Assembly: GCF_000510265.1 (NCBI RefSeq) | Contig: NZ_CP006745.1 | Span: forward strand, 1,013,654-1,077,653 | Reading direction: 5' to 3' | DNA from: Candidatus Endolissoclinum faulkneri L5 | GTDB taxonomy: Bacteria; Pseudomonadota; Alphaproteobacteria; Thalassobaculales; Thalassobaculaceae | DNA: 64,000 bases | Shown: positions 892-4,773 of the stretch, piece after piece | Layout of the letters: each line of letters begins with the position of its first letter | Position numbering within the stretch: position 1 is the stretch's first letter | The notes under the pieces: model-generated | Told to the model about the DNA's origin: nothing | The model's input: only the letters and a program-made list of their open reading frames with translations | Database searches by the model: none | Program-made: the position numbers and the translations under genes

Positions 892-1338
892 ATGTGCGCG
901 CAGAAAGCTCGTCCAGAAATCCTTGCCCCAACCATCGAACAGATGGCTGCTTTGGCGGAGGATGCTTTATCAAATATCCCTCAAAAACTCCTTAAACCAC
1001 TCTCTGGTCTTGCTATTTTAGTAGAAGATTTCCCCGATGAGGAGATGTGTGAAACAATGAACCTTGAAACACCGTTTGATTTGCTCAGCTTCTATCAAGG
1101 ATTATCACTTGACTATCATTCTACAAAAGATGGATTATCAAAATTTGATAGGTTATTTTTGTTTCGTCGATCAATCCTCAATTATTGGATCGATAGCGGC
1201 GATGATCTTTACACGGTAGTGCGTCACGTCTTAATCTATGAGATTGGTCATCATTACGGATACAGCGATAGTGAAATGGAAGAAATAGAACGTCTTGCGA
1301 ACGAGGAAGAAGCCAATGCTCCAGCAGGACGAGCCTAA
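892..1338 (+). CDS. Zincin-like metallopeptidase family protein, first zinc ligand lost
   Basis: This 148-residue protein resembles the small bacterial zincin-like family (Zincin_1, formerly DUF1025), whose members carry a motif of the form HExxHH followed by FGxSD near the C-terminus. Here the region reads RHVLIYEIGHHYGYSD. The glutamate (117) and both later histidines (120, 121) are present, but the first histidine is tyrosine 116, encoded by TAT at 1237-1239, one transition away from CAT. The rest of the reading frame is intact and of normal family length. The cellular role of the family is poorly known. With one zinc ligand missing this copy may be inactive, may bind metal differently, or may act without catalysis. 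The start at 892 is preceded by an AAAGGGG sequence inside a hairpin. It stands alone; the next gene is convergent. Confidence 0.8.
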   Translation: MCAQKARPEILAPTIEQMAALAEDALSNIPQKLLKPLSGLAILVEDFPDEEMCETMNLETPFDLLSFYQGLSLDYHSTKDGLSKFDRLFLFRRSILNYWIDSGDDLYTVVRHVLIYEIGHHYGYSDSEMEEIERLANEEEANAPAGRA

Positions 1339-2279
1339 AACCTAAATTATTCTCAGGAAATTTATTCTAAAAGTATCTCTAAAATTATTTTTACAGCGCG
1401 AATAAATGGATTACTAGTAATCAGAACAGCAAGTAAAATTGTTACTATTAAAGCTAGTACAGTATAAAAAGATAATTTTTACATGTAAATACACTATAAA
1501 AATTATCTAGCAAAGAACACTTTAAGGTTTACGCTTATATCAAAAAACCTCGCTAACTTATGTAATCATAATGTTTAATATTGGCATACCTAACAAAGAT
1601 TAATATATAATTTAAGTTGGATTGATTTACTTACTGAAGTAAAAGATTCAAATATGCTTATTATTGCTAACTTAAGTCATTTAATCTTTTTAACGATAAT
1701 TATTAATATCAATTAATCTAGTAAATAAAAATCATAAAATAATTACATATATTTTAGCTGGCCGAATATTATCATTCGATATAAATTATAATGAACTACT
1801 ATAACCAAGCATAATTAAATATTTTATTTAAAATTAATTATGCTTGGTATATAAAGTCATATGCAGAAACTTACCTATTTAAAGACCTAGACTAGTTAAC
1901 AATTAAAGTAAATTACATAATTATCTAATGCATTAATAAGCTAACATAATAAAGTATTTTTACAAAATACAACATTATACATATGCTAAAGATACCAAAC
2001 AATTACACCCAATTTTCATCAAGATCAAATATTGCTGGTATATTAGCTATATCAGTGTTTTAGATTATTGAAATATATAATACCAACCATCAAATTATAA
2101 AAACGCGCTTTCGAACCTACTAACTTCAATTATCTATTGATTACAAATATAATCACACTGAATATATCAATGACTAGTTCATAGAAGTATTATTGTCGTC
2201 GCTAATCAAACGAAACGCATGTAAGATACTTTGAATAACTAAAGCTAATTGCAGCATTTATTGACATCTTCGCTTGCCA
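1339..2279. other. Non-coding spacer between convergent genes
   Basis: This spacer separates the 3' ends of the zincin-like gene and infC. It is AT-rich with no credible reading frame. The one clear structure is a perfect 15-bp inverted repeat at 1804-1848. I see no recognisable remnant of rpmI or rplT, which often follow infC. Confidence 0.6.
1804..1848. repeat. Perfect 15-bp inverted repeat
   Basis: Arms 1804-1818 and 1834-1848 are exact reverse complements with a 15-nt AT-only spacer. It lies between two converging genes, so it could act as a transcription stop, but no T-run follows it on either strand. Confidence 0.75.
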
Positions 2280-2819
2280 TTACCGCGGAGTTATCACCAT
2301 TATCATTTGTTTGCCTTCAAGCTTGGGGTATGACTCTACCTTAGTAATATCAGCCATATCTTCCTGTACGCGCTTCAATACATTTAAACCAATTTCTTGG
2401 TGTGCCATTTCACGACCACGAAATCGCATAGTTAATTTAACTTTATCTCCGCCGGTTAAGAAACGAATTACGCTACGCATCTTCGTTTGATAATCATGCT
2501 CATTAATGTTGGGGCGCATCTTGATCTCTTTGATCTCAATGACCTTTTGTTTTTTCTTTGCTTCATTGCTTTTCTTCTGTGCTTCGTACTTAAATTTTCC
2601 ATAACCCAAAATCTTGCAAACAGGTGGATCAGCGTTAGGCGACACCTCTACTAAGTCAAGGCCAAATTTTTCCGCTTGCTCAATAGCCTCATCGACACTC
2701 ATCAAGCCTAAAATATCACCATCAGGACCAACGCAGCGCACTTTAGGCACACGAATGTCACGGTTGACCCGAGGGCCGTTTTTTTTGGACTGGGTCAGAT
2801 TAAATGTTGATCTAGCTAT
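2280..2819 (-). CDS. infC: Translation initiation factor IF-3, probable AUA start
   Basis: IF-3 binds the 30S subunit, prevents premature 50S joining and checks the start codon and initiator tRNA. The sequence is a typical IF-3, with the N-terminal domain, a lysine-rich linker ([14 protein letters not shown]) and the C-terminal domain ending in MIMVITPR. The first ordinary start in frame (GTG at 2750) would remove the conserved N-terminus. Upstream of it the frame stays open and encodes [18 protein letters not shown], the expected IF-3 N-terminus. It begins at an ATA codon (2819-2817) followed by [11 protein letters not shown] perfect AGGAGG (2831-2826) sits six bases before that ATA, and no ATG, GTG or TTG lies between the two. 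I therefore place the start at 2819, giving 179 residues. infC in enterobacteria starts with AUU and is autoregulated through it. The gene follows thrS by 16 bp, so the two probably share a transcript. Confidence 0.9.
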
Positions 2820-2831
2820 AGTTTACCTCCT
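2817..2831 (-). promoter_or_regulatory. Strong Shine-Dalgarno paired with an AUA start codon (infC)
   Basis: On the minus strand AGGAGG (2831-2826) is followed by six bases and ATA (2819-2817). The strength and spacing of the ribosome binding site decide the infC start and imply a non-canonical initiation codon, the type IF-3 discriminates against. Feedback control is inferred by analogy with E. coli infC. Confidence 0.75.
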
Positions 2832-2835
2832 GTTT

Positions 2836-4773
2836 TTACTCAGTAAAGCGACTGGCAGAACAATCTGGAGCCAACGCTTCAATACTTAGTTTATGAACAG
2901 CTTTATCAAGAGTAAGAATTTCTTGCGCCCTTTCACCTATGCGACGAATTACCACTTGCTTGCTTTTGGCTTCTCGAGTACCGATAATAAGCAAGGCAGG
3001 AATCTTTGTCTCAGAATGCTCGCGAACTTTGTAATTAATCTTTTCGTTCCGCAAATCTAGAGCTACACGGCACCCGACAGCCTTGCAACTGGCGGCTACC
3101 TCAAGTGCATAATCTTGAACCGTATTAGTAATCGTTGCCACTACGAGCTGAACTGGCGATAGCCACATCGGAAAACGGCCAGCAAATTGCTCGATTAATA
3201 TACCAATCCAGCGCTCCATAGAACCCAGAATAGCTCTGTGCAATATAACAGGCCGCTTTCGATCACCACTTTCAGCTACATAGGTAGCGTCCAAACGTTC
3301 CGGCAATACAAAATCAACCTGCAAGGTACCACACTGCCAATCACGGCCAATGGCGTCACGTAAAATAAATTCAATCTTTGGGCCATAAAAAGCACCTTCG
3401 CCAGGATTCAGAATAGTTTCCAAACCAGCAGCGATACATGCATCGCGCAAGGCACTCTCAGCTCGATCCCACACCTCTTCTGTACCCGCGCGAATAGCTG
3501 GCCGATCAGAAAAGTTGATTCGAATATCGTGAAAGCTAAAATCGGCATAAATAGATTTTAGCAAATCACAAAACTTTATGCTCTCCTCGGTAATTTGAGA
3601 TTCTGTACAAAAGATATGAGCATCATCCTGAGTAAAAGAACGTACTCGCATAACTCCGTGCAAAGCTCCCGATGGTTCGTTACGATGACATGAGCCAAAC
3701 TCAGCCAAACGAAGAGGCAGATCGCGATAAGACTTTATACCTTGTTTGTAAACTTGTACATGCCCAGGACAATTCATCGGTTTCAGCGCTAATAGCTTAT
3801 CATTTTTAGCACTAGTGGTGAACATATTCTCGTTAAACTTATGCCAATGACCAGAAGCTTCCCATAATGCCTGGTCAATTAACTGCGGCGTCCTAACTTC
3901 CTGATATCCCGCCATATCCAAACGACGACGTAAATACATTTCAATTTCACGATACAATATCCAGCCCTTAGGATGCCAAAATACAGAACCGACTGCATCC
4001 TCTTGGATGTGAAACAAATCAAGCTCACGGCCTATTCGGCGGTGATCGCGTTTTTCAGTCTCTTTCAGCGTTTTAATATGCAACTGCAAAGCCTTCTCAT
4101 CAGCAAAAACTGTACCATAAATCCGTTGAAGTTGCTCGCATTTACTGTCTCCGCACCAATAAGCACCCGCCAAATTCATAAGCTTAAAAGCATGACCAAC
4201 ATCCTTTGTCGATTGACCATGAGGGCCAAGGCAAAGATCAAGAAAATTACCCTGTCGATAAAAAATAATTGTTTCTTCAACAGAGATTTTTTTCGTCAAT
4301 TCAACCTTGAATAATTCTTTTTTTTGCTTGTAATATTCTAATGCTTGATCTCGCGTCCATTCTTCGCGCACAATATTTTCATCACTATCAACAATCTCAT
4401 GCATGCGCTGCTCAATCTTATTGAGATCATCAAGCGTGAACGACTGGCAACGGTAAAAATCATAATAAAAGCCACTATCAATCGATAGCCCTGTGGTTGC
4501 TTGAGCATCAGGATATAAATCCAGAACAGCCTCAGCTAAAATATGCGCGCAGTCGTGACGAATATAGGCAAGTGCTCTTTCTTCTTTACGATCAATCAAA
4601 ACAAGCTTAGCATCCTCGACAATAACAGAGTTAATATCGACTATCTTACCGTTAATCTCAGCGAGAAAAGCATCTTTTGAAAGACTAGAGGCAACATCAG
4701 CAGCAACAGTAAGTGGAGTAACCGGTAAATCATAATAAAGGACTGAACCGTCAGAAAGGCTAATAGCTGGCAT
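2836..4773 (-). CDS. thrS: Threonyl-tRNA synthetase
   Basis: This enzyme charges tRNA-Thr with threonine and edits mischarged Ser-tRNA-Thr. It is 645 residues, the normal full length. In order it has an N-terminal TGS domain (about 1-60), an editing domain with the HxxxH signature at H73 and H77 and a later CLGPHGQST segment, a class II catalytic core (MNCPGHVQVYK, then FGSCHRNEPSGALHGVMRVR with motif 2, then the HRAILGSMERW segment of motif 3) and a C-terminal anticodon-binding domain. No disruption is visible. It lies directly upstream of infC in the same direction, the same partnership as in E. coli thrS-infC. The rpmI-rplT genes that usually follow are not found downstream here. Confidence 0.97.
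   Translation of the reverse strand: MPAISLSDGSVLYYDLPVTPLTVAADVASSLSKDAFLAEINGKIVDINSVIVEDAKLVLIDRKEERALAYIRHDCAHILAEAVLDLYPDAQATTGLSIDSGFYYDFYRCQSFTLDDLNKIEQRMHEIVDSDENIVREEWTRDQALEYYKQKKELFKVELTKKISVEETIIFYRQGNFLDLCLGPHGQSTKDVGHAFKLMNLAGAYWCGDSKCEQLQRIYGTVFADEKALQLHIKTLKETEKRDHRRIGRELDLFHIQEDAVGSVFWHPKGWILYREIEMYLRRRLDMAGYQEVRTPQLIDQALWEASGHWHKFNENMFTTSAKNDKLLALKPMNCPGHVQVYKQGIKSYRDLPLRLAEFGSCHRNEPSGALHGVMRVRSFTQDDAHIFCTESQITEESIKFCDLLKSIYADFSFHDIRINFSDRPAIRAGTEEVWDRAESALRDACIAAGLETILNPGEGAFYGPKIEFILRDAIGRDWQCGTLQVDFVLPERLDATYVAESGDRKRPVILHRAILGSMERWIGILIEQFAGRFPMWLSPVQLVVATITNTVQDYALEVAASCKAVGCRVALDLRNEKINYKVREHSETKIPALLIIGTREAKSKQVVIRRIGERAQEILTLDKAVHKLSIEALAPDCSASRFTE

Follow-up and report, generated by a model that had tools for sequence, protein, structure and literature searches.

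In Escherichia coli, infC, which encodes translation initiation factor IF-3 (IF3), starts at AUU, and changing this codon to AUG abolishes autocontrol, according to the account of Butler et al. (1987) given in PMC9845219. In Streptomyces, IF3 represses non-canonical starts; infC there begins with ATC and is often misannotated, and sigR begins with GTC (PMC5472188). The infC gene of Staphylococcus aureus starts at AUA, as mapped by retapamulin ribosome profiling, and in other genes of this species AUA and AUU starts yield roughly 10–30% of AUG output (PMC13009471). We compared these systems with the infC locus of the symbiont Candidatus Endolissoclinum faulkneri L5, whose genome forms one 1,518,636-base contig; the window analysed is a 64,000-nt stretch of it.

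Symbiont infC lies on the minus strand (2280–2819) and, read from an ATA codon (2817–2819, minus strand), comprises 179 codons and a stop. A direct read of the window gives the minus strand around this start as ...gagtaaaaacAGGAGGtaaactATAgctagatcaacattt... The frame scores 245 bits against the infC equivalog TIGR00168 (cut-off 60) and contains complete IF3_N (PF05198) and IF3_C (PF00707) domains. A Shine-Dalgarno (SD) site, AGGAGG (2826–2831, minus strand), ends six bases before the ATA, and the 3′ end of the symbiont's 16S rRNA carries an intact anti-SD, GGATCACCTCCTTT. No standard start is available upstream because an in-frame TAA (2823–2825, minus strand) stands two codons 5′ of the ATA (TAA ACT ATA) and closes the frame. 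The locus thus has the two marks of a non-canonical start, namely an AUH codon (AUA, AUC or AUU) at SD distance and no standard in-frame start upstream. It is homology that gives the SD and ATA their weight: AGGAGG followed by ATA at a spacing of four to nine bases is by itself not above chance, with three occurrences in the window where shuffles predict 1.48. On this sequence evidence it is close to certain that the AUA at 2819–2817 is the infC start. The original prediction, which had placed an AGGAGG six bases before an ATA and assigned the IF-3 N terminus to the frame that follows, is borne out on both counts.

The threonyl-tRNA synthetase gene thrS (2836–4773, minus strand) is directly upstream of infC, with 16 bases between its stop and the ATA, an order shared with the free-living congener L312 and with E. 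coli. The likeness to E. coli extends to an in-frame stop just upstream, a GGAGG, an AUH start and a two-domain IF3; the E. coli start is AUU rather than AUA, its SD is shorter, and autoregulation has been shown in E. coli only. S. aureus infC likewise combines AUA with a strong SD, and autoregulation has been proposed there too (PMC13009471), although it belongs to another phylum and its start comes from ribosome profiling, whereas that of the symbiont is known from sequence. The Streptomyces genes resemble the symbiont's in that infC has a non-canonical start of a kind that IF3 represses, and differ in the codons used (ATC in infC, GTC in sigR) and in being backed by experimental data (PMC5472188). 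Downstream of infC, some 940 bases (window 1340–2279) hold no open reading frame of at least 60 amino acids before the next gene, which encodes a Zincin_1 metallopeptidase (892–1338, plus strand; PF06262). Unlike in E. coli, rpmI-rplT do not follow infC in the symbiont; in L312, no rplT was found directly downstream of infC among open reading frames of at least 90 amino acids.

The two described strains of Ca. E. faulkneri, L5 (1.51 Mbp) and L2 (1.48 Mbp), have a coding density of 57%, and Thalassobaculum litoreum is their closest characterised species (PMC3851785). Among the same-genus relatives, the sister strain G005 consists of one 1,481,191-base contig (1.48 Mb) and four free-living congeners (G001–G004) are of about 5 Mb. 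Both small genomes read CAGGAGG(T/C)AAACT ATA GCT AGA at the infC start, with CAGGAGGTAACCT ATC GCC AGA in all four large genomes. CAGGAGG is therefore found at equal spacing in 6/6 genus members, and the free-living congeners match the symbiont in SD, spacing, frame and downstream sequence but have ATC where it has ATA. Only the third start base differs, ATA in 2/2 symbiont strains and ATC in 4/4 free-living congeners, always within AUH. Symbiont IF3 shares 94% identity with the G005 protein and retains the core motifs of E. coli IF3. A comparison with relatives had been proposed as a check on the start, and an AUH codon occupies the same place in the sister strain, in the congeners and in nearly all Alphaproteobacteria sampled. 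The claim that an AUA start survives in a decaying genome also holds, as both symbiont genomes keep it.

Two surveys extended the comparison to the class. The first searched for a pattern of GGAG plus the motif GPR[VIFY]N..I, with the start codon left free, and almost all matches listed have ATA, ATC or ATT between SD and motif. For a larger set, drawn mainly from protein matches, starts were picked blind, by best SD match and spacing, among ATG, GTG, TTG, CTG, ATA, ATC and ATT; this rule correctly called ATT for E. coli infC. Outside the genomes of about 1.6 Mb or less, 206 distinct alphaproteobacterial loci were called as ATA (139), ATC (41), ATT (23), ATG (1) or unclear (2), that is, AUH in 203/206. 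AUH was also called in 44 of 45 loci from other Pseudomonadota (ATT 19, ATC 17, ATA 8, GTG 1). The sole ATG call, in L184, falls within the conserved core and is probably wrong. For 174 of 243 distinct loci, the stretch from the upstream stop to the AUH codon contains neither ATG nor GTG nor TTG. Loci that lack a convincing AUH start include L198; L239, the GTG call in a non-alphaproteobacterial genome; and L261, from a 1.4-Mb genome, where infC apparently begins at an ATG lacking an SD. The original prediction was right that infC starts at AUA, which position, frame, SD and class-wide conservation of AUH all support, but mistaken in calling AUA rarer still than the AUU of E. coli: in Alphaproteobacteria, infC starts with AUA more often than with any other codon (139/206), and an AUA start has been reported for S. 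aureus infC as well (PMC13009471). The AUA of symbiont infC is a conserved, already known kind of weak start, not a rarity of a decaying genome.

Small alphaproteobacterial genomes (up to about 1.6 Mb, size being only a rough marker of reduction) give a more mixed picture. Their 38 distinct loci comprise 26 AUH calls, of which L261, L279, L286 and L300 are doubtful by eye, seven clear TTG, ATG or CTG starts with an SD, and five unclear cases. Judged from their sequences, the seven (TTG or ATG in L275, L276, L292, L293, L294 and L299; CTG in L297) have apparently replaced an AUH start with a standard one or with CTG. A weak start can therefore be lost from a reduced genome, so that its retention in the symbiont is not trivial. 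IF3 feedback seems, by the same sequence evidence, to be dispensable in some of the lineages with TTG, ATG or CTG.

All parts needed for an E. coli-type loop are present in the symbiont: conservation across relatives places the start site, and the SD, the anti-SD and the IF3 domains are retained. By a reasonable analogy with E. coli, feedback by IF3 is the best explanation for this arrangement. Initiator fMet-tRNA would start infC at the AUA (2819–2817), guided by the perfect AGGAGG; as AUA mispairs with the initiator anticodon, IF3 on the 30S subunit would destabilize the complex. Because of this poor pairing and destabilization, high IF3 would repress translation of its own mRNA and low IF3 would release it. 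The arrangement would have been inherited from a free-living ancestor and held in the symbiont by selection for the feedback. Taken together, an AUA start, IF3 feedback and inheritance kept by selection make up a reading that we hold with considerable confidence. It is unlikely, though a real possibility, that the AUA only sets a low level of IF3 and that the codon persists by inheritance in a symbiont devoid of feedback. Feedback is not visible in sequence, and the lack of AUH starts in some reduced genomes indicates that the loop is not essential everywhere, both of which suit such passive persistence. Against it stand the intact IF3 domains, SD and anti-SD of the symbiont. Moreover, one transition would turn ATA into ATG, yet this change is seen in neither symbiont genome, although the strains are estimated to have diverged 6–31 million years ago and both lack mutSLH (PMC3851785).

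The preference for AUA was further compared with codon usage in 113 infC genes of at least 55% GC. These were picked for an AUH start, and the comparison is therefore among the three AUH codons, not with ATG. ATA is the start in 84 of them and accounts for just 13 of their 1,026 internal isoleucine codons (1.3%); the Fisher value for this difference, 3e-87, makes it look more significant than it is, since genomes that share ancestry are not independent samples. A fast tree built from IF3, a short protein, requires at least 15 changes of the start among the three codons in the GC-rich subset and at least 19 in all 153 rows. That AUA is the dominant infC start of Alphaproteobacteria against a strong codon bias is possibly a novel observation. 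Our search of the available literature turned up no account of ATA infC starts in Alphaproteobacteria, and the non-AUG-start survey arXiv 2008.10758, to which PMC9845219 led, may cover them. Opinion could fall evenly either way on whether alphaproteobacterial infC is under selection for AUA specifically, beyond any weak AUH codon, presumably for a particular strength of IF3 discrimination, with AUA kept in some decaying genomes while others have gone over to TTG, ATG or CTG. It is very improbable that the preference instead reflects overlap with TAG (ATAG) or another nucleotide signal rather than start-codon strength. ATAG is common at infC starts, since GCN (Ala) is a frequent second codon, but among the 84 GC-rich ATA starts the next base is C in 38 and T in 2, and in these 40 the overlap does not exist and cannot explain the preference. 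The infC leader in the window, moreover, shows no stable structure (z = +1.15), which argues against another signal.

A start at GTG (2748–2750, minus strand), which would yield a shorter protein, is scarcely credible. This is codon 24, the first standard in-frame codon and the first that standard gene callers would accept. It has no preceding SD and is GTT in G005 and GTC in the congener G004, and therefore cannot be a conserved start. As originally predicted, starting there would delete 23 residues including conserved ones, among them positions 1–7 of IF3_N, and the frame upstream of the GTG is conserved at the protein level across Alphaproteobacteria. A CTG at codon 8 (AAT CTG ACC) was also rejected; it lacks an SD and is ACG in 4/4 free-living congeners. 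That a fault of sequencing or assembly put ATA in place of a standard start has a negligible chance of being correct, no supporting evidence having been found and ATA recurring in the independent genome G005, with AUH throughout Alphaproteobacteria. Within the limits of sequence evidence, error and truncation are thus excluded.

Reading infC from the AUA corrects the gene model. A standard-start call at the GTG gives the truncated protein that had been foreseen, and other alphaproteobacterial genomes are likely to be affected in a similar way. The infC starts of the class also form a natural data set on which weak start IF3 feedback needs, and on when a shrinking genome drops it. For the symbiont alone, the AUA start is an ordinary, conserved feature.
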